Positions 36,065 through 48,101 of a stretch of DNA of 64,000 nt are shown here, in pieces. Source of the stretch: Spirochaetales bacterium Spiro_09 (GTDB lineage: Bacteria; Spirochaetota; Spirochaetia; Treponematales; Treponemataceae). Both the position numbers and the translations under genes were made by a program. The notes beneath the pieces were generated by a model, which had not been told where the DNA came from, did no database searches, and worked only from the letters and a program-made list of their open reading frames with translations. How positions within the stretch are numbered: the first letter of the stretch is position 1; every line of letters starts with the position of its first letter. Where the stretch lies: NCBI GenBank assembly GCA_001604385.1, contig LVBK01000004.1, forward strand, positions 62,001 through 126,000, in the 5' to 3' direction.

Positions 36065-36995
36065 AACCGGTGGCCTCGGCAGAGGCTTGAACGCGCTTCT
36101 GGAAGATGACAGGCAGGAATTTGAAACAGCGGCGGGCAGCACCCGGACAGATTCGGCAAAACCGGCTCAGGGTGCCGGAACCGAGCTATTCGTAAACCCT
36201 GCCCTTTTAAAACCAAACCCCCATCAGCCAAGACAGGAATTCGACGAGGAGGCACTTCGCGAACTGGCGGATTCCATACGTGAACACGGTATCATTCAGC
36301 CTATAATTGTCGAGAAAAACGGCGAGGACTCCTACTACATCATAGCCGGAGAGCGCAGAACCCGTGCGGCACGCATGGCAGGGCTCACGAGTGTACCGGT
36401 AATTATTAAGAAATTCTCGGAAGAGCGTAAGCTGGAAGTTGCGCTTATAGAAAACATTCAGCGGGAAAACCTCAATCCCGTCGAGGAAGCGCAGGCCTAT
36501 CACCAATTAATGACGTTGGGAAACCTGAGTCAGGAAGAAGCTGCTGCTCGCGTCGGAAAAAGCAGATCGGCGGTTGCAAATGCCTTGCGTCTTCTTAAAC
36601 TGCCCGAGGATATGCTGTCATCACTTGCGTCGGGACAACTTACGCCCGGACACGCCCGCGCCATACTCTCAATCATCAACCCCGCTGACCAGCGCATCCT
36701 GTTCGGCCGCATCATCGGCAACGGGCTTTCAGTACGTGACACCGAACGAATGGCCGGCGAACTGAACGCTGGAAGCCGCGCCGGTGCATCCGGAACCGCA
36801 GGAAACCCAAAAAAAGAAAAACAGAGCGCTCCCTCCGATATAGAGGCACAGAATCTCGAGCAGAAATTCATAGACGTTCTTGGTACAAAGGTAACCATAA
36901 AAGGAAATCTTGAAAAAGGTTCCATCGAGATTGCCTACTTTTCACGCGATGATCTCGACCGTATCTATGAACTGATCAACTCCGCCGGACAATAA
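36057..36995 (+). CDS. parB: Chromosome-partitioning protein ParB (Spo0J)
   Basis: 312 residues. The start is GTG 36057, giving MAKTGGLGRGLNALLED, the usual ParB lead that stimulates ParA. The CTPase/ParB-N domain carries QPRQEFDEEAL, IIQPI and the arginine patch GERRTRAARMAG (near 100). The HTH follows (LSQEEAAARVGKSRSAVANALRLLKLP, near 160). The C-terminal dimer domain is at about 265-312. AGAGG lies eleven bases before the start. Its end overlaps the convergent ppk end by 20 bases. Confidence 0.94.
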   Translation: MAKTGGLGRGLNALLEDDRQEFETAAGSTRTDSAKPAQGAGTELFVNPALLKPNPHQPRQEFDEEALRELADSIREHGIIQPIIVEKNGEDSYYIIAGERRTRAARMAGLTSVPVIIKKFSEERKLEVALIENIQRENLNPVEEAQAYHQLMTLGNLSQEEAAARVGKSRSAVANALRLLKLPEDMLSSLASGQLTPGHARAILSIINPADQRILFGRIIGNGLSVRDTERMAGELNAGSRAGASGTAGNPKKEKQSAPSDIEAQNLEQKFIDVLGTKVTIKGNLEKGSIEIAYFSRDDLDRIYELINSAGQ

Positions 36996-39153
36996 ACTCG
37001 CGCTGGGGAGTTTTTTCAAATAGTTCAAATTTCGTCTTTTCCGCCTCGTACAGGGACTCCTGTACCCTGAACGGTTTTTCGCCCTGTACCGGCGTTCGTC
37101 TAACCCATGAACCGTCAGGCTGTAAATAATGGGCTTTCGTGTTATCGCTAAAATACAGCTGCAATATATCAAAGACGCTTTTTCGGATCGATTCCTGATA
37201 TACCGGAAACATCAATTCAATACGCCGGTCAAGGTTTCTGCTCATCCAGTCGGCGCTTGCAAGATACAGTTCATCGGAACCGCTGTTTGCGAACCAGAAA
37301 ATGCGGGTATGTTCCAGATAACGGTCGATGATACTGACGACCGTTATATGTTCGCTCATGCCGCTCACGCCCGGAACCAACATACACACACCCCTGATAT
37401 TGAGCAGCACCCGGACACCCGCGCGGCTAGCCCGGTAAAGCGCATTGATTATTTCAATATCCGCAAGACTATTCATCTTCGCAACAATTTTCCCGGGGCG
37501 TTCCACTGTGGAGCGGTCAATCTCGCGTTCAATAAGACTCAGCAAGCGCGATTTCAAGTCAATCGGAGCCATCACCAGGGAACGCGTACTCATAATTGCC
37601 GAATATCCCGAAATCATATTGAAAAAGAGTGTCGCATCCGATGCAATCGTCTCGTTCGTGGTGAAAAGCGACATATCGACGTACAGCCTGGCAGTCCGGT
37701 CATTGTAGTTACCGGTTGACAAATGCACATACCGCCTGATTCCCTCCGGCTCCCGGCGGACAACCAACAACACCTTGGCGTGTACTTTCAGGCGTGCAAT
37801 TCCATACACCACAATGACGCCAACTTCTTCCAGACGGTGAGCCCAGGAAATATTGCGGGCTTCGTCAAACCGCGCTTTCAGCTCGACAAAAACAGTCACA
37901 TGCTTGCCAGCGCGTGCAGCCCGCTCAAGAGACCGAATAACGGGAGAATCGCCGCTCGTGCGGTACAGAGTCATCTTGATGGCCAAAACATCCGGGTCTG
38001 AAGCAGCGTCATTTATAAAGCGCAAGACCGGGTCATACGTAGAATAGGGAACATGGAGCAACAAGTCGGTACGTTTGAGGGTATCCCATAAAGGTGCATC
38101 CTGGGGAAAATCAACCGGCCAATGATTCCGCCAGGGAGGATTCCTCAAATGATCCAGACCTTCAGCATTTACCAGATCGACGAGTGTTGGAAGGTCAATT
38201 GGACCGGAAACGGGATACACATCCTGGGACGACAAACCCATGCCTTCTTTAAGAAAATTCAATATATGGGTACTTTCGCCGGTACACAGTAAACGCACAG
38301 GAACCGAGGAGAGGCGGGAAACCAGCACTTCCTGTATCGCAGCGATAAAGTCCTCATCCCGTTCCTCGTCAACAGCCCGGTCTGCGTCACGCGTAACCTT
38401 GAAGAGGATGCTTTCGGCAATGGAAAAGCCGGGGAAAAGTCGCTGACCGAAGGTGCGAACGACATCATCAAGAAGGGTAAAATATCTGACCCCTTTTACA
38501 TCGGGAAGCCATACAACGCGGGGAATGCTCGACGGTATCTGAACTATGGCAAGTGGCTTCTGACCACTTTCACCATCGGCAGCCGTCTTGTCCTGGGTCA
38601 GAATTCCGGAAAGAGAGAGGAAGTCGGCAAGCGGACCTGTCGGCATCGCAATAGTGCTTTTCAACAAAAAGGCGGCATGCAGACGAAGATTGCTGATACT
38701 GGGAAATATACCGCCGGTATTTGTTCTGAGCGGAGTCAAAAGGGGAAACACGTCTGACATGAAGTATGCATCCAGATAGCGCACATGCGCTTGCGTATAG
38801 GCACGCGGATTGACATAGACAACATTCTCTTTCGCAAGCCCCGGAAGGATGTCTTCTCTCAGAACCCGGAATTGTGTATCGACGATTTCATGCACCCGGC
38901 CTGAAATGCGTTCCAGTTGCTCCCTGAGCGTAAAACCGGAAGAATCCTTCCACTCCGGATTCCTGGTACATTGATGTTTCAATCCGGCCACCCGAACCAT
39001 AAAAAACTCGTCAAAATTTGAAGCAACTATGGTCAGGAAACGCAAACGCTCGAGAAGCGGAACGTCTTTCTGCAGAGCCTCGTCCAGAACGCGGGCATTA
39101 AACTCGATCCAGGACAATTCACGGCTGAAATAAAGATTGTCGTCATCTTTCAT
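36976..39153 (-). CDS. ppk: Polyphosphate kinase 1
   Basis: 725 residues. It makes polyphosphate from ATP through a phospho-His. The four PPK1 domains can be followed: N-terminal LSWIEFNARVLDEA, the head domain, then C1/C2 with ASDPDVLAIKMTLYRTSGDSPVI and the active-site His in YVHLSTGNYNDRTARLYVDMS. The C-terminal phosphate-binding ASADWMSRNLDRRIELMFPV block is intact. A GAGGT lies just upstream of ATG 39153. It follows ppx by ten bases in the GH63-ppx-ppk unit, so making and breaking polyphosphate are controlled together. Confidence 0.95.
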   Translation of the reverse strand: MKDDDNLYFSRELSWIEFNARVLDEALQKDVPLLERLRFLTIVASNFDEFFMVRVAGLKHQCTRNPEWKDSSGFTLREQLERISGRVHEIVDTQFRVLREDILPGLAKENVVYVNPRAYTQAHVRYLDAYFMSDVFPLLTPLRTNTGGIFPSISNLRLHAAFLLKSTIAMPTGPLADFLSLSGILTQDKTAADGESGQKPLAIVQIPSSIPRVVWLPDVKGVRYFTLLDDVVRTFGQRLFPGFSIAESILFKVTRDADRAVDEERDEDFIAAIQEVLVSRLSSVPVRLLCTGESTHILNFLKEGMGLSSQDVYPVSGPIDLPTLVDLVNAEGLDHLRNPPWRNHWPVDFPQDAPLWDTLKRTDLLLHVPYSTYDPVLRFINDAASDPDVLAIKMTLYRTSGDSPVIRSLERAARAGKHVTVFVELKARFDEARNISWAHRLEEVGVIVVYGIARLKVHAKVLLVVRREPEGIRRYVHLSTGNYNDRTARLYVDMSLFTTNETIASDATLFFNMISGYSAIMSTRSLVMAPIDLKSRLLSLIEREIDRSTVERPGKIVAKMNSLADIEIINALYRASRAGVRVLLNIRGVCMLVPGVSGMSEHITVVSIIDRYLEHTRIFWFANSGSDELYLASADWMSRNLDRRIELMFPVYQESIRKSVFDILQLYFSDNTKAHYLQPDGSWVRRTPVQGEKPFRVQESLYEAEKTKFELFEKTPQREFIVRRS

Positions 39154-39163
39154 GAAACGTACC

Positions 39164-40708
39164 TCATACCACGATCAATTTGTAACCGAAAACCGATTCA
39201 AAAAGGTCGGCCTTCTCGTCAAGGGCGATGCGCTCAAGCGTAATGTCATGAGTCCCTTTCGCGCGAAGAAAAAGGGTGTCTGCAGTCAATTCAATGTCGA
39301 AATCCTGAATATGCTGGGAATGTCCCCGGTCCAGTGCGTCGGCGATGCGAAGAAGAGCCGATAATTTGAGCACGACCGTACGGTCTGTGCGCTGCAGGGA
39401 TGCATACGCCGGGTGGCTTGCCTTCGGCAGCTCGGCGCGGTGATACCGGACCACATTGGAAACAATATTCATGTCATCCCTGTTCAGTCCAAAAATGTCT
39501 GCGTGGGAGATAATATACTGACTGTGCAAATGATGATCGGCAGCACGGATAAATGAACCGATATCATGCAGCTGTGCAGCCGTTTCAAGCAAAAGACGCG
39601 CATGTCGGTCCAGTCCGTGTTCGGCGTTCAGACTGTCAAAAAGTTTGAGCGCTATCCTAGTAACATATGATGAATGTGACTCGTCAAGGTGGAATTTCTT
39701 GCCCAGAGTGAGAGCGGAGGCAATGACCTGTGTATAAAACTCTTCCCTGACCAGATGCTCGGGCCCCGCAAGCCGGGAAATTATATACCCTTCCCGAATG
39801 GACATATAGGGAATAAGGACACTTTCCGAGCCGGTCATTTCGAGTACAAAACGGTATGCCAGGAGGCCGGGCAAGAGGAGCTCGGCTTCATTATATCCGA
39901 TTCGAAGATTATGGACGATTTCCTCGACACTGTATTTACACAGCCGTTCCACGAAAGAAATGAAACCATCCCGTGAAACGATAGCATAGCGGTCATCGTA
40001 CTGAACGCCGATTGCTCGTCCAACAAGCCGGGCATCGCTGCCGCTTGCGATAAGTTGGGTGATAACATCGAGACGTAGCTCGTTATTGAGCGTTTCAGCG
40101 GTTGTCCGTATATACTCTTCCATGAAGCGCCTGAGATCCTTGAAAGACCCCATCATAGCCTTGATCTGCTGAGCGATGATAACCGTTCCCATGCGGAAGC
40201 TGTGCGCGGCGACCATTTTGCCCTTTTTCAAAAGCATTATTTCCGTCGATCCGCCGCCAATATCCATAATAATGGAATTGGCCTTTGACATACGCACGGG
40301 TACTCCATGCAACACATGGCTTACCATCAGGTACATAAGGCGGTTTTCTTCGATACCGTCGATAACATGTACTGAAAAACCGGTTTTAACCGCGATTCTG
40401 TCAAGGATAGAATCGCGGTTCCTGGCTTCACGGAACGCGCTTGTCGCAATAACATTGATATGTTCGCTGTCCAGATTCCAGCCCGAAAGGGTTTCACGAT
40501 ACCGGTTCAGTATGGCAAGTAGCTGCAGCAGGGTCTCCCGGGAAATATTGCCGTCAGTAAAAACATCCCGCGCAAGGGATAACGCACGTTCTGCACGATC
40601 AATGACTTTCCAGTCACCCCGGGGGGTGACTTCTGCTACAAGCAGTCTGATGCCGGTTGAACCGATCTCGATGACTGCCTCAAGGTATGGCCGGGCGTCA
40701 GGTTTCAT
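39164..40708 (-). CDS. ppx: Ppx/GppA exopolyphosphatase with HD-type C-terminal domain
   Basis: 514 residues. The N-terminal part (to about 310) is the actin-like Ppx/GppA phosphatase domain: VIEIGSTGIRLLV, TSAFREARN and MDIGGGSTEIMLL. The C-terminal part is HD-like, with AAQLHDIGSFIR and VRYHRAELP. It removes end phosphates from polyphosphate, or hydrolyses pppGpp. The ATG at 40708 comes four bases after the stop of the upstream GH63-like gene and has no clear ribosome-binding site, so translation is probably coupled. Confidence 0.92.
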   Translation of the reverse strand: MKPDARPYLEAVIEIGSTGIRLLVAEVTPRGDWKVIDRAERALSLARDVFTDGNISRETLLQLLAILNRYRETLSGWNLDSEHINVIATSAFREARNRDSILDRIAVKTGFSVHVIDGIEENRLMYLMVSHVLHGVPVRMSKANSIIMDIGGGSTEIMLLKKGKMVAAHSFRMGTVIIAQQIKAMMGSFKDLRRFMEEYIRTTAETLNNELRLDVITQLIASGSDARLVGRAIGVQYDDRYAIVSRDGFISFVERLCKYSVEEIVHNLRIGYNEAELLLPGLLAYRFVLEMTGSESVLIPYMSIREGYIISRLAGPEHLVREEFYTQVIASALTLGKKFHLDESHSSYVTRIALKLFDSLNAEHGLDRHARLLLETAAQLHDIGSFIRAADHHLHSQYIISHADIFGLNRDDMNIVSNVVRYHRAELPKASHPAYASLQRTDRTVVLKLSALLRIADALDRGHSQHIQDFDIELTADTLFLRAKGTHDITLERIALDEKADLFESVFGYKLIVV

Positions 40709-40712
40709 GACA

Positions 40713-42143
40713 TTACAGTTTGTCTATGAGCATGGAGCACTTGCCCGAAGGTATCGGAAGTGTCTTTTTCTTGTGACCCAGAATATTAATGGTAAAATAG
40801 TACAGCTTTTCACTTTCCATATGAATTTCCCACCCTCGCTGACTTTTCGTCGAAAGAATGGTAATCAAATTTCGCTTGAGACTCAAGTTCTCTATACCCA
40901 TCACCTCAAGGTTCGGAATAATCCAGTCAACCGTTTTTCGCGGCAAACTGATGGACAGGCCGATGATATTCTCGATCATCAAGGCGATAGTCGAAAGACC
41001 CGCATAGGGGAGATATTGCTTGCGGGGGAAACCCTCTTTCCCCTGCCAATGTGCAGGGCCTTCTTTTTGCGGAAGGTATGCTTCCCACAGGAATCCCTTG
41101 TTATGCTCGCCGTTCGGGGAAAGCGCGTCAAGCACGTAATAGAGGTGGCGGATTGTACACTCGCGGGCAAGATTCCATCGCTGATATTTTTCCAGCCCTT
41201 TGATAACCATAAAGGTAAAGGGAGGAAACACACTGCCACGATACCCCATTCCCCGCTCATCAAATTCGGGATCATCTGCGGACAAAGACGGGAAAGGATG
41301 ATCAAGTCCGAAGGTCTTGGGATTCTGCAAATGCGCTATCAGCCGCTCGGCCTTATCCTCGTTCGGTATTTCAGCAAGCAGGGGCCAAAAACCCGCAATG
41401 GTTTTTTGGGGTAATCGTTCGTCCTTCTCGTCAATATCATGATAAAACCCGGTATCCGGATCCCACATGTGGGAGTTAATCCGGGTTTTGAGGGAAAAAT
41501 ACATTCGCTTGTACTGGAAACTCAGTTCCTTGTCATTGAGAATATCGCCCAAGGCAGACATGTAGAGGGCATTAATGGAAAGGGCAGTATTGAAGTCCAC
41601 CAGATAGGCAGCCTTCTTGCGGGGGGAATTCGTCATGGTCGTCGCTGCAAGGGGAACCTTGTACAGGCCATTTTCCTGCTTGAAGGTCGCATCGATCCAG
41701 CTCATGTACCGCTGCAATACCGGCATAATCTCCTTGATGCGTTTCTTGTTCGCCGATTTATGAAACAGATTGAATTCAGCCCAGGCAAAAAGCGGCATGC
41801 CAATACCTTCGGGGTTATCCTTGGTCAATACCGGCTCGCCGGTAAGCAGGTTGTACTGCCAGCGGATCGCACCAGTATCTTCCTGGTGCTCGTAAAAAAA
41901 GTCGAGACTCTGGTTGGCATGATAGTTACGGTTTGAATAGACAAAGAAAAAAGAGGAAAAAATTGTCTCAAACTGGCGCAAAACAGACTCTTCGCCGTCC
42001 GGATATATAAAATATCCCTCGGGAGAAAGGCCTTTTACTTCCGGAGTTATCCAGTAGTCCTGAATCCATGCCCAGCTTCGATCATATATGTCAACAAAGT
42101 CCTGATCATAAAAATGAACTTTGGGGAAATCTCGCTTGTTCAC
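40713..42143 (-). CDS. GH63/mannosylglycerate-hydrolase-like glycoside hydrolase
   Basis: 476 residues with an (alpha/alpha)6-barrel pattern. Segments such as WAWIQDYWI, GAIRWQYNLLTG, GMPLFAWAEFNLFHKS, DFNTALSINALYMSALG and the C-terminal FLWEAYLPQKEGPAHW with PYAGLSTIALMIENIIGL resemble the MGH1-like GH63/GH37 group, which includes trehalase and mannosylglycerate hydrolase. Glu in WEAY is a likely catalytic base. No signal peptide is visible. AAAGGAG lies six bases before the GTG start at 42143. First gene of the unit with ppx and ppk. The substrate could be a compatible solute; that is an inference. Confidence 0.75.
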   Translation of the reverse strand: MNKRDFPKVHFYDQDFVDIYDRSWAWIQDYWITPEVKGLSPEGYFIYPDGEESVLRQFETIFSSFFFVYSNRNYHANQSLDFFYEHQEDTGAIRWQYNLLTGEPVLTKDNPEGIGMPLFAWAEFNLFHKSANKKRIKEIMPVLQRYMSWIDATFKQENGLYKVPLAATTMTNSPRKKAAYLVDFNTALSINALYMSALGDILNDKELSFQYKRMYFSLKTRINSHMWDPDTGFYHDIDEKDERLPQKTIAGFWPLLAEIPNEDKAERLIAHLQNPKTFGLDHPFPSLSADDPEFDERGMGYRGSVFPPFTFMVIKGLEKYQRWNLARECTIRHLYYVLDALSPNGEHNKGFLWEAYLPQKEGPAHWQGKEGFPRKQYLPYAGLSTIALMIENIIGLSISLPRKTVDWIIPNLEVMGIENLSLKRNLITILSTKSQRGWEIHMESEKLYYFTINILGHKKKTLPIPSGKCSMLIDKL

Positions 42144-42202: not shown

Positions 42203-42271
42203 TTTTTAAGTATATCATAAAGTAAAATAAAATTATATACTTGACAGGCAAAAAATTGTTCCGGAGGAATG

Positions 42272-44665
42272 ATGTATCAGTCCCATATATTCCTGGAAGT
42301 ACGAATTCTTGTTCCCATACAGGAAAAAGCCTTTTGCCAGTGCCATACCGGCAACACCCCGGGAACCTGTCCGGTATGCAAACGGGAGGCAGGCGCTCTG
42401 CCGGAAGTCAATAAACAGGCAGCCCGAACCGCGTATACCCTGGCGCATGCACTCGATTGCGCCCTTGCAGAAAAAGCTGATTTTGAACGACCGAAAGGCG
42501 CCCCCCTGCTGCCCGAACAATATAGCCTCTCTGGTGCTTCAATAAAGATAGCCTCGGACGGCTTTATGGACATAGAATTTCATCGCCGGAAAAAAAGGAT
42601 TACAATCCGGGAAGTCCGCCTTGAAGAATACGCCGGTAGGTTAACCCACACAAATGGCGAGGCTGTCATGGATTACTCCCACGCCGGAGCGCCGAATATC
42701 AGAATCAGAACAGCAAGCGATATGGAATTGGGAGAAGAAGCCGAAATTTTTCTGTCGGAGCTACACCGCCGCATCCAGTACATGGGAATATTAAAAGGTC
42801 TTCCTGTAGAAACAATGACCCGCTGCAACGCATACGTCGCACTGGCCCGTTACCCAGAAAAGCCTGTCTACTTCGTCAAGTTGAGAAACTTGAATTCGTT
42901 CAACTTTGTACGCAAGGCAATAAATGCTGAATTACACCGCCAGGAAGATATATTGATTTCAGGCGGACAGGTCGCATCGGAAAGCAGAATCTGGAACGAA
43001 CGACAAGGCCGAACCGAATTTTATCAGAGCAGGGAATCTGTTTCAAATCTCGAAGCAGGCCTTATCAGCGGAGCAAAAAGCTTCATGTGCCCGAAAGCCC
43101 TGCTTGCCGAACTGCGGGCATCTGCAGTGGAACATCCTTCGGACAGACAGAATAGACTGATAAAGAATTTTGGCATTTCACGCATACGAGCTTCGTTCAT
43201 TTGCGACGAAAAAAGCAGGGCAGATTTTTTTGAGCAGACAATACGCGCCGGTGCGGATCCGATGGAGAGCGCCCACTGGCTCATGTCGGATGTCACCGGT
43301 CTATTACGCAAGGCGGGAAAAAATATCGCGGACTCTCCATTATCTCCCCGACGTCTTGCGGATATCCTGGAACGGTATCACAACAAGGCAATATCAAGCC
43401 GAATTGTAAAGCAGTTACTGCAAGCGGTCATAGATACCGACAAGGATCCCCAGGAAATCATCAATGAAAACAACTGGAGCCAGATAACAGATACCGAACA
43501 ATTACGTGTGCTCGTCCAGAAGGCAATAGAAGATAATCAAGCGCAAACCGGCCGTCTGCGGGCAGGAGAAATGGCACCTCTCGAGTATTTAACCGGCATA
43601 GTAATGAAAAAGACCAGGGGCCTGGCGGATCCGATCGCAGTTAAAAAACTACTCAAGGAAGAACTTCACATCAGCCTTATTTATGTTTTGGCAATGGGTG
43701 GTACCATCTCCGGAAACATCGATGACGGTGAAATTTCAGCCGGGGACGACAAGATTCTCAAAACCATGCTCATGCAGGATGACGAATCACAAATCAGTAT
43801 CGAGAATATTACTGCCGATCAGCTCCTCAGCGAGGAAATACAGCCTGCAGACTGGGCCGACCTGATATGTGCGGTAGCCGGAAAAATAAGTTCGGGAACC
43901 GCAAACGGGATTGTCATAACCCACGGGACAGATACACTGTCATACACCGCGCCGCTCATTTATTGGCTCTTTGCCGATGCACCGGTACCAATCGTTTTTA
44001 CCGCATCGAACACCCCTCCCGGCAAGCTTGATCCCCAGGAGTCACCGGACGAGGCCCGGCTGAATCTGAACCGGGCAATCAGGCTGGCACGGGAGAAAGA
44101 CCGGGGTATTTACGTAGTATTCGGAGAGAAAGTGCTCTCTCCGCTCAATCTGAAATTTTATCGGCCCGCTCTTGCAGGCTTCACCAACTGGAATACCGGC
44201 GAACCGCAATATACGGGACAGGGCCTGTTATCCGATTTCGCCGATGTTGATCCCTATGTATTCAAGCGCCTTCTTTCGGAAGCGGCGGACCGCATGCATA
44301 TGAGCCGGGTTTTCCCTGGACTCAGGGCAGACCGACTCCTTGCACTCAATGATTCCGGAGTAAACTGCTTCTTTCTTGAGCTCTACGAAAAGGGCACGGG
44401 CAGCATGCGCAATACCGACTACTCACTGAAAACCCTGCTGGTACAGGGGCGCAAAAGGGGATGCAGATTTTATTGCACATCCCAACAGGAAAGCGTTGTT
44501 GACTTTACCGGATATTCCACGGCCCGGCGTATGTGGCGGGAAGGTGCGATCCCCATGGGATCGCTGACTACCGAAACGGCAATCGCCCTGTATTTTGCAG
44601 GCAGCCTGGTGTGCGATACACAGGAAGAGCTTGACGAACTCATGGAAGCCGCCGGTCAGGGGTGA
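42272..44665 (+). CDS. GatB/GatE-like amidotransferase subunit fused to an L-asparaginase (GatD-like)
   Basis: 797 residues. Residues 1-290 match the GatB/GatE catalytic core: the zinc site FCQCHTGNTPGTCPVC (Cys 22, 24, 33, 36), LPEVNKQA, an EEYAGR echo of EEDAGK, and KLRNLNSFNFV near 203-213. Residues 295-465 match the GatB/YqeY tRNA-contact tail. Residues 467-797 are a type I L-asparaginase with Thr478 (GGTIS), Thr553-Asp554 (HGTDT) and Lys628 in place. Archaeal GatE plus GatD is the known two-protein version; here they are one chain in reverse operon order. The GatB half lacks the DYNRAG and YFPEPDLP consensus, so its acceptor may differ from Glu-tRNA(Gln). ATG 42272 has better GGAGG spacing than ATG 42269. 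Confidence 0.85.
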   Translation: MYQSHIFLEVRILVPIQEKAFCQCHTGNTPGTCPVCKREAGALPEVNKQAARTAYTLAHALDCALAEKADFERPKGAPLLPEQYSLSGASIKIASDGFMDIEFHRRKKRITIREVRLEEYAGRLTHTNGEAVMDYSHAGAPNIRIRTASDMELGEEAEIFLSELHRRIQYMGILKGLPVETMTRCNAYVALARYPEKPVYFVKLRNLNSFNFVRKAINAELHRQEDILISGGQVASESRIWNERQGRTEFYQSRESVSNLEAGLISGAKSFMCPKALLAELRASAVEHPSDRQNRLIKNFGISRIRASFICDEKSRADFFEQTIRAGADPMESAHWLMSDVTGLLRKAGKNIADSPLSPRRLADILERYHNKAISSRIVKQLLQAVIDTDKDPQEIINENNWSQITDTEQLRVLVQKAIEDNQAQTGRLRAGEMAPLEYLTGIVMKKTRGLADPIAVKKLLKEELHISLIYVLAMGGTISGNIDDGEISAGDDKILKTMLMQDDESQISIENITADQLLSEEIQPADWADLICAVAGKISSGTANGIVITHGTDTLSYTAPLIYWLFADAPVPIVFTASNTPPGKLDPQESPDEARLNLNRAIRLAREKDRGIYVVFGEKVLSPLNLKFYRPALAGFTNWNTGEPQYTGQGLLSDFADVDPYVFKRLLSEAADRMHMSRVFPGLRADRLLALNDSGVNCFFLELYEKGTGSMRNTDYSLKTLLVQGRKRGCRFYCTSQQESVVDFTGYSTARRMWREGAIPMGSLTTETAIALYFAGSLVCDTQEELDELMEAAGQG

Positions 44666-44688: not shown

Positions 44689-46587
44689 TTATTCTGCGGG
44701 AAGAAGGTCAGCCTGGTCCCGGAGCGGCAATTCTGCCGGAGACGTTTCGGGAACCGGCTGATTTTGCTCGGGTGGACGGCCGAACCAGACAGTTACATCC
44801 TCGTACTCGGCCTTATGCAGCATCTTCATGTACAGTGTTTCAGTTTCCTCGTTATACCGGTAACCTGACGAATTATAGCTTTCAAATCGGGGATCGGTAC
44901 GGAAGTCCATTCCATATATCTGAATCCGGTAAAACGGCTTGATACCGCGAAACACCATGTAATGAGTTTCCCCCTGGGGGAAGCGTGTGGTAAAACGAAG
45001 CACATTCGGCGCAGGGGACTGTACGCTGACGGACTGGGCGCTGGTCCACACCCATATCCCGGGTCCCGCTGAAGATGCAAGCGAAAGAGCCCGTGGATAC
45101 CAGGTATTCGAGGAAACCACCAGAGGATACAATTCGGCTGGCGGTATCATACGATCCGTGCGGGCGACCACACCGTCTATCACACCGGCTGCATTTCTGG
45201 CCAGAGTAAAGTGGGAGGGAAATTCGGCACGTTCCTCCCCGAAGGAAAGAAGCGAATTCGCCAGTAAATTACCGGCTGCTTTCCAGTGAATTCTGTCTCC
45301 ACCGAGACCACCGTATCGACGCATTATTGCCGCAATTCGCAGAGTATGCACGGTATCCACCAACTGACCGTCTGCCGACAAGTACAACTGGTCCCGCACC
45401 TGATACAACGATTCTTTCAGCCGTCGTTCGCAGGATTCGCCCAGAGCCTCAAGCGGGGCAACAATGTCGCTTGCATAGGAGCGGGCATCGATCCAGGCAT
45501 CAAGGATACCGGCTGCCTGGAGGGGTGTTATGGAAGCCATATCAAGCGATACCGCAAGACGGGCAATATCATTTAACAGGACGGAACTACCGCGATCCAC
45601 AAGGAAGGGGATGACAGAGGGAAATTCAAAAACCTCGGGATTTCCGTCAGTCAACAGGCGCGACAGGCGTGAACGCTCTTCCCTTTCACGGGAAACAAAA
45701 CCTGTCCATGTTTTCTCAAGATTGTTCAGGAAGGTATTTGTCTGCCAGGTCCGACTCGGGGAGTTTCGCCAGGCCAAGGGAATGGATTCCAGGGCGGACC
45801 GATACATTCCGGATCGGCCCATTTCGGAGATATAGGCGGCGACCAGAGGTTCTGTCAGGTTTCCGGATGACAGCGCATTACGGAATGATACAAGAGCGTT
45901 CGCGGCAAACTGTTCCACCGAGCGCTGAACAGCGCTGTCAGAAGCGCCGGCAAGCGATGCAAGTTGTTCAATGACAAGGCCCTTCGACGGAATCCATGTC
46001 TGGTACGCGACGACAGGAGAACGGCGATCGATCATCAGCCGGTTTGTCCGGTTCATGGCCATATCCTGGGGCACGGACGAGACAAAGGAGAAGGTTTTCT
46101 TGTCGGAAACAACCACAACCTGTGCTTCACGGTTCTCAAGATGAGACCGTCGGGTTATCTTGTAAGGCAGACTGATTTTCTGGTATTTTGTCGGTATGCG
46201 GGCCGTAATCAGCACCGATTCAACATCGCCCCGTTTTTCAAGGGAAAACGACAGACTGACATCCTGCTCGAAGAGCACCGAGAAAGATGAGGGGGACTGT
46301 GAAAATCCGGTAACCTGAAGAGGGATACTGTCATTTTGCCGTATATAGGCGTGCAGGGGCGACTGATCATCGAGGAAAAAGTCCAGGCCGTTAGCTCCCA
46401 TGTGCAGGGGAAGCACCGGAACAACACTTCCGTTATCCAGAGTACTGGTTGTACCGGTTATGTGCAGCGAACCGAAAGTAACCGAAAAGGAGTCGCCGTT
46501 CCTAAACTGAATGGCGAAAATACCGAGTATTATAACAAGATAGAGCGCGGCGGCCAGAAAAAGCCTGCGTGACACATACTTCATCAT
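44689..46587 (-). CDS. Large exported or membrane-anchored protein of unknown function, 632 residues
   Basis: After MMKYVSRR there is a single hydrophobic segment (about residues 9-27) that could be a signal peptide or anchor. The rest is periplasmic in character: beta-rich to about 230 (FGSLHITGT, LHMGANGLDFFLDD), then helical. The tail is Pro/Glu-rich. I do not recognise it. The start at 46587 is set by a TTGAAA-17-TACACT promoter whose -10 ends seven bases before it; longer in-frame versions read through that promoter. It converges with the GatB-asparaginase gene, 23 bases apart, and diverges from the TPR lipoprotein gene. Confidence 0.65.
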   Translation of the reverse strand: MMKYVSRRLFLAAALYLVIILGIFAIQFRNGDSFSVTFGSLHITGTTSTLDNGSVVPVLPLHMGANGLDFFLDDQSPLHAYIRQNDSIPLQVTGFSQSPSSFSVLFEQDVSLSFSLEKRGDVESVLITARIPTKYQKISLPYKITRRSHLENREAQVVVVSDKKTFSFVSSVPQDMAMNRTNRLMIDRRSPVVAYQTWIPSKGLVIEQLASLAGASDSAVQRSVEQFAANALVSFRNALSSGNLTEPLVAAYISEMGRSGMYRSALESIPLAWRNSPSRTWQTNTFLNNLEKTWTGFVSREREERSRLSRLLTDGNPEVFEFPSVIPFLVDRGSSVLLNDIARLAVSLDMASITPLQAAGILDAWIDARSYASDIVAPLEALGESCERRLKESLYQVRDQLYLSADGQLVDTVHTLRIAAIMRRYGGLGGDRIHWKAAGNLLANSLLSFGEERAEFPSHFTLARNAAGVIDGVVARTDRMIPPAELYPLVVSSNTWYPRALSLASSAGPGIWVWTSAQSVSVQSPAPNVLRFTTRFPQGETHYMVFRGIKPFYRIQIYGMDFRTDPRFESYNSSGYRYNEETETLYMKMLHKAEYEDVTVWFGRPPEQNQPVPETSPAELPLRDQADLLPAE

Positions 46588-46594
46588 CTGATCG

Positions 46595-46623
46595 AGTGTA
46601 ACTAAAGCACGAGACAATTTCAA
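46595..46623 (-). promoter_or_regulatory. Promoter of the 632-residue protein gene, leaderless geometry
   Basis: TTGAAA (46618-46623), 17-base spacer, TACACT (46595-46600), seven bases to ATG 46587. Confidence 0.6.
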
Positions 46624-46640
46624 CGCCCCGAGAGGAACCA

Positions 46641-48101
46641 ATGAAACCGAACAGAAAAACAACACACGCCTTCGCAAAGGCAGCAAGACGATGCAGCCTT
46701 CCGGCACTGGTGATCCTGCTTGTATGGTCATGTGCATCCGGGCCCGGAACGGACGGAGAGGCGAATACCGCAACGACCGGAACTGATCAGCGACAAACAG
46801 AAACCGGAAAGGAATGGACCCGTCTTTCATTTGGAGAAGAATTGGCGCATCTCATGGGGACGCAGGAATACGACAAGGCTCTTGCACTTTTTACAGCTAT
46901 TCCGGAAGAATTTGCCGCTGACACGTCGCTTCAAAAACTTGAGGCCTCGGTTTTACTGACTGCCGGCAGAACCGAAGAGGCCCGACAGCTGGCCGACACC
47001 CTCTTGAAGAAACACCCTGACGATACGGAAATACTGCTCCTGCAAGCCATGATCGCAGGCATACGGGGAGAAGCCAACGCACGAACCGGTTACCTCAACG
47101 AAATTCTGAAACGGGAACCCGCTCACGGAGAAGCGTTGACCGCACTAGGTCTCGATTTTCTCGGCAGAAAAAACTATCCACAAGCCCGATCCTTCCTGGT
47201 CAGGGCAGTTGCTGCAGACGGAACAAATATCGATGCCCTGCTTGGGCTTGCACGGGTTTATTATCTGGAAAACGACCTGAAAAAATCCGGCGACACACTC
47301 AACCTCGCCCTTTCCCGGGAGCAGTCATATTCGGTGCTCTGGTCGGAACGCGCGCGGGTACGGGCGGAAACGAACGACCTGCCCGGGGCCATCGAAGATA
47401 TACAGAAAGCAATCGAACTGGACAATTCAATCTACAGTCACTGGACCGATTACGGCAGCTACCTGATGAGTGCAATGAAAAAGGAAGAAGCTCGCGAAGC
47501 GTATTCCCGGGCCATCAAACTCCGGCCCGATCAATATCTTGCGTATATTTACCGCGCCGGGCTGAATGACGACCTCGGCAATGAAGACGGGGCGGTTGAA
47601 GACAACAGGATGATAGCGAAACTGTATCCACAATACTATTATGCCTCGGAAACACTCGGGGTCCTGTTGTGGAAACGGGGTAATTTCACCGAAAGTCGGG
47701 AGGCGTTTCTGACCGCCCTTTCGTATAGCCCCAAAAATATTTCCTATGCGCTGATGGCAACACTATGCTACTACCGTGAAGGCAGGGAGACCGACGCGCA
47801 AAACTTCATGCGGAAATATATCACTACCCTTGACCGAACCACTACAGAATACTTTCTGTGCCGCCTGTTCGTCGACAAAAGCGGTGACACGGACGTGTTG
47901 AATCGCATAATGCGCGAAAAAAACGCGACAGACCGCAACCGCATGCTGTTTTATTCGGCAATGTATTATGACCTGTTCATGAACAAGAATATTGCCCAGA
48001 AATATTACCTCGAGATAGTGTCGACTCCGATTCCCTCGTTTTTTGAGTATCGGATTGCCGGATGGGCACTAAAAGAACTGGAGAACGGCAGCCGGGGATG
48101 A
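46641..48101 (+). CDS. TPR-repeat lipoprotein
   Basis: 486 residues. A signal peptide ends in VWSC, a loose spirochaete-type lipobox (Cys about residue 31). A Thr/Gly-rich linker leads to a long array of TPR repeats from about residue 65 to 400, for example LLALARVYYLENDLKKSGDTL-type units and SHWTDYGSYLMSAMKKEEA. It is likely anchored in the inner or outer membrane as a scaffold. GAGAGGA precedes ATG 46641. The DHH gene starts twelve bases after its stop. Lgt in this window could lipidate it. Confidence 0.85.
   Translation: MKPNRKTTHAFAKAARRCSLPALVILLVWSCASGPGTDGEANTATTGTDQRQTETGKEWTRLSFGEELAHLMGTQEYDKALALFTAIPEEFAADTSLQKLEASVLLTAGRTEEARQLADTLLKKHPDDTEILLLQAMIAGIRGEANARTGYLNEILKREPAHGEALTALGLDFLGRKNYPQARSFLVRAVAADGTNIDALLGLARVYYLENDLKKSGDTLNLALSREQSYSVLWSERARVRAETNDLPGAIEDIQKAIELDNSIYSHWTDYGSYLMSAMKKEEAREAYSRAIKLRPDQYLAYIYRAGLNDDLGNEDGAVEDNRMIAKLYPQYYYASETLGVLLWKRGNFTESREAFLTALSYSPKNISYALMATLCYYREGRETDAQNFMRKYITTLDRTTTEYFLCRLFVDKSGDTDVLNRIMREKNATDRNRMLFYSAMYYDLFMNKNIAQKYYLEIVSTPIPSFFEYRIAGWALKELENGSRG

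Follow-up and report, generated by a model that had tools for sequence, protein, structure and literature searches.

The fusion gene and its relation to known families

The window, i.e., the whole stretch of 64,000 nucleotides that was analysed, holds a gene which was confirmed to encode a real single-chain fusion, composed of a GatB core, a helical/YqeY tail and an asparaginase-fold domain. The gene, its parts and its conserved neighbours are located as follows:

42272..44665, forward strand: remodelled GatB and asparaginase-fold domain in one open reading frame of 797 aa (reading frame and alignment to 19 other full-length homologues)
42263..42267, forward strand: GGAGG, probable ribosome-binding site, 4 nt 5' of the ATG at 42272 (sequence)
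42272..43141, forward strand: GatB cradle, residues 1-290 (Pfam, alignment)
43142..43669, forward strand: residues 291-466, helical and YqeY tail, the portion with which GatB anchors tRNA (PF02637, 4e-39)
43670..44662, forward strand: asparaginase-fold domain, residues 467-797 (PF00710; profile versus PDB)
43703..43705, forward strand: Thr478 codon, nucleophile position (residue counts and tree)
43928..43933, forward strand: Thr553-Asp554 of HGTDT (residue counts)
44153..44155, forward strand: Lys628, position of the catalytic Lys (residue counts)
40713..42143, reverse strand: MGH1-like glycoside hydrolase ('GLYC'), the divergent neighbour marking the ancestral gatCAB-AspRS2 locus (PF22422, 1.7e-29; synteny)
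36976-39153, reverse strand: gene which we take to be PPK-like (conserved neighbourhood)
39164-40708, reverse strand: gene which we take to be PPX-like (conserved neighbourhood)

The reading frame runs unbroken from the ATG at 42272 (or 42269) to the stop codon at 44663-44665, and the encoded protein aligns at 43-72% identity with 19 other distinct homologues, all full-length (777-846 aa), by which a frameshift, an artefact of two separate genes and a chimera were ruled out. An earlier note, made from the letters of this DNA, had read a GatB-related and an asparaginase-related half in one chain, and this is borne out by Pfam as well as by the reading frame and the homologues: GatB_N was matched at residues 7-257 (6.7e-39), the claimed YqeY-type tail was found as GatB_Yqey at residues 318-465 (4e-39) and the N-terminal part of Asparaginase was matched at residues 470-627 (2.9e-26), while the match to Asparaginase_C at residues 679-773 is weak (0.045) and under its cut-off. 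All of the motifs named there, i.e., CxC..CxxC, RNLNSF, Thr478, Thr553, Asp554 and Lys628, are present. When compared with the PDB, the profile of the asparaginase-fold domain matched 4q0m (1.2e-34) and the GatD structure 1zq1 (1.3e-30). The helical and YqeY tail was identified as the least conserved part of the fusion, with 10 of 176 positions invariant. Structure prediction of the fusion (sequences of the window, of L032 and of L033) failed, with a pLDDT of 43.8; L032 (Treponema sp. MAG11) and L005 are apparently one contig, and so are L033 (Spirochaetales bacterium) and L010.

Scored against models of known families, the window protein stays under the cut-off of the NCBIfam GatB model (304.6 versus 338 bits), which the one canonical fused GatB tested passes with 619 bits, and likewise under those of TIGR00133 (265.5 versus 314.8 bits) and of the NCBIfam type I asparaginase model (88.3 versus 260.5 bits). 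The GatE models (65.6 versus 456 and 44.7 versus 319.55 bits) and the GatD models (84.4 versus 324 and 83.4 versus 310 bits) gave partial matches far under cut-off, and the GatB half is thus closer to bacterial GatB, its nearest model, than to GatE (304.6 versus 65.6 bits). That the protein is equivalent to GatE plus GatD is not supported, as both are matched in part only and as, in relatives with a canonical fusion, this locus holds a gatCAB-AspRS2 operon. With the GatB of bacterial GatCAB (PF02934 and PF02637; NF004012/TIGR00133) the window protein has the domain order, the tail and many structural motifs in common, and its gene shares the locus with gatB of the gatCAB-AspRS2 operon, whereas it differs by the extra asparaginase-fold domain of 330 aa, by replaced Mg/ATP residues, by the lack of gatA and gatC neighbours and by scores under the model cut-offs. 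Archaeal GatDE, consisting of the asparaginase-like GatD and the GatB-like GatE, likewise couples an asparaginase fold to a GatB fold; in contrast, the window fusion is a single chain, its nucleophile is not conserved and its GatB site is non-canonical. The fused domain possesses the fold and most pocket motifs of type I L-asparaginases and GatD (PF00710, PF17763; PDB 4q0m, 1zq1), but is separated from the stand-alone asparaginases of the class by profile scores, and the canonical fusions differ by the alanine at their nucleophile position. A GatB-type tail is also joined to another enzyme in the GlnRS-YqeY fusion (NF011291), where it has a tRNA-binding role, while the window protein has no synthetase.

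Distribution of the fusion and the probable ancestral operon

Using the profile of the fused domain at E 1e-20, 69 of 394 genomes of the class were matched, namely 61 with the fused-type domain (some as fragments) and 8 with stand-alone asparaginases of 331-379 aa, the latter scoring 90 bits or less. As 16 of the fused-type genomes belong to the window's order and 45 to other orders, the GatB::asparaginase-fold architecture is spread over the class, and the window gene belongs to it by fused-domain profile and GLYC-linked locus. Of the 45 from other orders, 29 distinct genomes were read, all of which possess a canonical GatB half and form the canonical set; L157 and L160, which are broken by frame, were left out of it. 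Of 59 relatives 25 carry the fusion; 20 of these copies are full-length, and five were left out, being incomplete at one end (truncated: G003 and G010), divided between contigs (G001) or broken (G013, G028). Interruptions were seen as in-frame stops in L026 (G013) and as a split frame in L012 (G028), the latter of which may be a sequencing error. The full-length relatives' set of 20, together with L090, L093, L094, L139, L144 and L145 from wider searches, makes up the remodelled set of 26. On the GatB tree, as judged by eye, fused and unfused GatBs are intermingled, so the asparaginase-fold domain was probably lost several times. Outside the phylum the search covered a plasmid collection and one scan of genome contigs; in the former 54 records matched, none of them covering more than 80% of the query, and the best 10 of the 54 match the GatB half only. 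Among the matches listed from titles and abstract beginnings of the open-access literature, no paper about a GatB-asparaginase fusion was found.

In all 11 loci of the window's order that were fetched with flanks GLYC divergently adjoins the fusion, and in 10 of them the PPX- and PPK-like genes lie beyond it. Within the window neither gatA nor gatC nor AspRS2 adjoins the fusion, its neighbours being GLYC and the gene of a 713-aa protein (44689-46830, reverse strand) that has no Pfam match at E 0.01. Relatives of the latter lie near the fusion in 9 of the 11 loci. As a side observation, GLYC shares about 91% identity with the corresponding genes of L118 and L128, compared with 68-74% for PPK, PPX and the fusion, which indicates unusually slow evolution.

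Within other orders GLYC is divergent from a gatC-gatA-gatB::asp-AspRS2 operon (e.g., L115:7458-12982, L161-L180), which is predicted to serve tRNA-dependent asparagine synthesis. In the 22 loci read (L114, L115, L161-L180), AspRS2 adjoins the fused GatB throughout (19 by BLAST, 3 by match position), while GatA was identified in 21, GLYC in 18, with three of the four misses ending at a contig edge, and GatC, which is short and was looked for with a single query, in 12. Both AspRS2 that were tested score over the cut-off as aspartate--tRNA(Asn) ligases (511.7 and 515.9 bits, cut-off 353), and the one GatA tested, that of L114, lies just under its cut-off (462.2 versus 481.1 bits). Based on the shared GLYC-marked locus, the window gene stands in the position of gatB in the predicted asparagine operon, while the partner genes are absent. 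The matches listed for 36 genomes of the window's family, among them the genome of the window, include none of the AspRS2-like kind (about 200-240 bits across the full model); in another family of the window's order (f5), L035 and L036 possess a second gatCAB-AspRS2 operon elsewhere.

Residue changes in the two halves

For the yeast enzyme, the model given in PMC4027206 assigns Mg binding to H36, E156 and E186 and ATP binding to E34, T189, N230 and S232; mapped to S. aureus GatB numbering, these are H12, E125 and E150 for Mg and E10, S153, N194 and S196 for ATP. Residues were counted in the 26 remodelled fusions versus 34 stand-alone GatBs and the 29 canonical fusions. H122, E125, E150, D192, N194 and E210 are found in 34/34 stand-alone GatBs and H12 in 32 (two gaps), and the canonical fusions keep all seven in 29/29. 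In the remodelled set the mapped Mg ligands H12, E125 and E150 read R (26/26), E (26/26) and R (25/26, one C), the window protein being R/E/R, and of the mapped ATP ligands N194 is replaced by Y (21) or H (5), while E10 is kept in 24 (D in 2) and the S/T153 position is T in 26/26. S196 became A in 21 and G in 2 and remained S in 3, a weak test as this position is N in 18/34 stand-alone GatBs. Further exchanges are H122R (26/26), D192N (25/26) and E210K (26/26). The replacements in the window protein are H12 to R11, E150 to R144, H122 to R116, E210 to K203 and N194 to Y188, and the new residues R11, R116 and K203 (26/26) as well as R144, N186 and R205 (25/26) are nearly fixed. Retained in the remodelled set are E124, E125, D140 and S216 (each 26/26) and N213 and N215 (each 24/26), and the window protein retains E9, E118, E119, D134, R184, N206, N208 and S209. 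The KxYFYP and DYR blocks are mostly gone, P84 being left in 17 and R268 in 7 of the 26, and at 37 of the 83 positions that are at least 97% conserved in canonical GatBs the remodelled set has a different majority residue. The statement of the earlier note that several GatB consensus motifs were lost thus proved correct and even understated. Its suggestion that the acceptor may differ from Glu-tRNA(Gln) gained support. With the ligands assigned after the yeast model, the window protein keeps one of the three Mg ligands and has another residue in place of at least one ATP ligand. Considering this and the lack of adjoining gatA and gatC, the known GatB reaction is very unlikely for the window protein, which, with the Mg/ATP site lost, very probably has ceased to phosphorylate and amidate Asp- or Glu-tRNA by the established mechanism. 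The gene is nevertheless under purifying selection where this was measured: in two close remodelled pairs dN/dS by domain is 0.05-0.17, with dS already high (0.8-1.8) and other pairs mostly saturated, hence the fusion was kept rather than decaying in those lineages.

The asparaginase-fold half varies at its nucleophile position, which is T in 10, A in 14, V in 1 and S in 1 of the remodelled set, i.e., not Thr in 16/26, and Ala in 29/29 canonical fusions, a count that includes near-identical pairs and does not stand for 29 independent cases. Thr553 (23/26) and Asp554 (25/26) are both found in 29/29 of the canonical set, and Lys628 is K in 26/26 remodelled and K in 20 and R in 9 of the 29 canonical fusions, which furthermore possess SEE as well as C735, S737, Q738, Q739 and E768 in 29/29. 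Across both sets S520, E521 and G552 (55/55) and D554 (54/55), which we take to be residues of the asparaginase pocket, are conserved while the nucleophile varies. The alanine of the canonical fusions suggests a non-hydrolysing asparagine-binding domain, and the ASPARAGINASE half of the fusion probably goes back to a nucleophile-less form.

The Thr/Ser copies form one clade of 12 members (support 0.983) which holds the window's genus and has T in 10, S in 1 and A in 1, with T553-D554-K628 intact in 12/12. Outside of it (n=14) the nucleophile position is A in 13 and V in 1, and the triad drifts in four copies, with L, K or S at 553 in three and A at 554 in one. On the midpoint-rooted tree a single regain of Thr is apparently the shortest account. 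Thr at 478 in the window's clade may reflect either restored catalysis, by which asparagine hydrolysis would be possible, or drift among small residues, whereby the intact T-D-K of all 12 members leans weakly toward the former. The window copy carries T478, T553, D554 and K628 together, the four not being conserved across the family.

Possible functions of the fusion

The reading we favour, held tentatively and with slightly less than even confidence, takes the window gene to derive from a fused GatB and to have since been orphaned and rebuilt; its product would be a non-transamidating regulator that binds tRNA and asparagine and perhaps hydrolyses asparagine again. The ancestral protein would have served as GatB in an amidotransferase that is predicted to act on Asp-tRNA(Asn) and is encoded in the gatC-gatA-gatB::asp-AspRS2 operon still present in other orders, and the nucleophile-less C-terminal domain would have bound asparagine (or aspartate) uncut. 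A domain of this kind, retaining most of the amino-acid pocket and attached to an amidating subunit, may be read as sensing the product of tRNA-dependent asparagine synthesis. In the window's order a fused GatB copy would have persisted apart from gatC, gatA and AspRS2 and would have lost its Mg/ATP site (H12R, E150R, N194Y/H, E210K). The GatB shell and YqeY tail of this remodelled copy might dock tRNA, the asparaginase-like domain might read asparagine and the pair might regulate a partner; in the window's own clade, where the Thr nucleophile is back, asparagine might also be hydrolysed. Judged from its residues, the window copy may be an active asparaginase, which is a point against the favoured reading.

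To our knowledge, no built-in feedback sensor has been described for tRNA-dependent asparagine synthesis. A nucleophile-less asparaginase fold on GatB, located beside gatA and AspRS2 in several orders, is a direct and easily tested candidate for one, and the window lineage illustrates the fate of such a fusion devoid of its operon partners, i.e., a selected transamidase scaffold with a re-tooled active site. Labelling the window gene plainly as 'GatB' or 'asparaginase' may mislead.

The genome of the window is a metagenome-assembled genome (MAG) of 2.72 Mb, 88% complete, in which the proposed search for gatCAB and glnS was answered in part: one GlxRS only was found, and neither GatA nor a second GatB nor an AsnRS over cut-off. 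As 11/11 congeners possess AsnRS over cut-off, these absences look like missing sequence. Stand-alone GatB and GatA are present in 7 of the 10 other genomes of the genus carrying the fusion, and among the 59 relatives the fusion is accompanied by a stand-alone GatB and a match to the Amidase family in every genome more than 91% complete, the latter family being represented by a gene elsewhere in the genome in 46 of the 59. Together with the AsnRS gap, this means that the absences are not evidence for an essential role of the fusion in translation. A dependence of the genome on the fusion for both Gln-tRNA and Asn-tRNA was rejected as unsafe, given the 88% completeness and the equally missing AsnRS. 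In G001 and G002, two genomes of the same genus (91% and 84% complete), GatA and stand-alone GatB were not found, and each has two PF00749 matches, one of which may be GlnRS (in G002 judged solely by its length); GatCAB may have given way to GlnRS in some members of the genus, or the two assemblies may be incomplete.

Among the alternatives, a different reaction on aminoacyl-tRNA or on a tRNA base, asparaginase-fed or not, carried out by the Arg/Lys-rich rebuilt GatB pocket is unlikely; it would fit the nearly fixed new residues, the retention of E118, E119, D134 and S209 (26/26) and of E9, N206 and N208 (24/26) and the low core dN/dS of two pairs, but arginine in place of metal ligands may equally be the salt-bridge repair of a dead site. 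A plain asparaginase with a GatB relic as scaffold, at least in the window's clade, is a doubtful reading as well: the single well-supported clade of Thr/Ser copies with its intact triad would agree with it, while the alanine or valine and the drifting triad outside this clade, the possibility that a small residue (A/T/S/V) at 478 simply drifts and the score far under the type I asparaginase cut-off argue against it. Moreover, the flexible-loop Tyr, which has a role in classical asparaginases, is not seen in the family consensus. It is improbable that the fusion acts as a pseudo-subunit of the resident GatCAB, which would pair with GatA/GatC or compete for tRNA in place of the catalytic GatB; the stand-alone GatB in every fusion genome beyond 91% completeness is consistent with this, whereas many genomes have a stand-alone GatB and no fusion. 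We give equally little credence to the idea that the nucleophile regained from Ala to Thr supplies ammonia, or an asparagine switch, to an Arg-altered GatB site performing a new, Mg-independent tRNA reaction. Least probable is a single-chain GatDE-like amidotransferase, in which ammonia of the asparaginase half would be used by the GatB half on Glu-tRNA(Gln) or Asp-tRNA(Asn), as the two folds in one chain, the four catalytic residues of the window copy and an assembly with one GlxRS and without GatA, second GatB and AsnRS over cut-off are outweighed by the rebuilt GatB site (H12R 26/26, E150R 25/26, N194Y/H 26/26, E210K 26/26; KxYFYP and DYR mostly lost), by the unconserved nucleophile and by absences that resemble missing sequence in a genus where most fusion genomes carry GatB and GatA.

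The favoured reading as a tRNA- and asparagine-binding regulator also has to be set against the supply of asparagine in these genomes. Synthesis of asparagine via ND-AspRS and GatCAB alongside AsnRS is described for Deinococcus, Thermus and Bdellovibrio in PMC4206432. AsnRS, AspRS2, AsnA and AsnB were surveyed in 37 hand-chosen genomes, of which 21 are fused-canonical and come from the 45 in other orders, 10 belong to the order of the window and 6 lack the fusion. AsnRS over cut-off and an AspRS2 match (one cut by the contig end) are present in 21/21 fused-canonical genomes, 10 of which lack both AsnA and AsnB over cut-off (G366 and G467 have AsnB-like matches below it) and 11 of which do have one of them. 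Since 4 of the 6 unfused comparators (G234, G270, G064, G128) also lack AsnA/AsnB over cut-off, this lack, which would speak for the favoured reading, is not specific to fused genomes. AsnA or AsnB was found in 10/10 remodelled genomes tested, with AsnA in 7/7 tested of the window's family, and this, together with the stand-alone GatBs in most relatives' genomes, counts against the regulator reading. As a minor observation, a second AspRS2-like gene, with 209 bits to asnS, lies apart from the operon at G203:C1:3599910-3601169.
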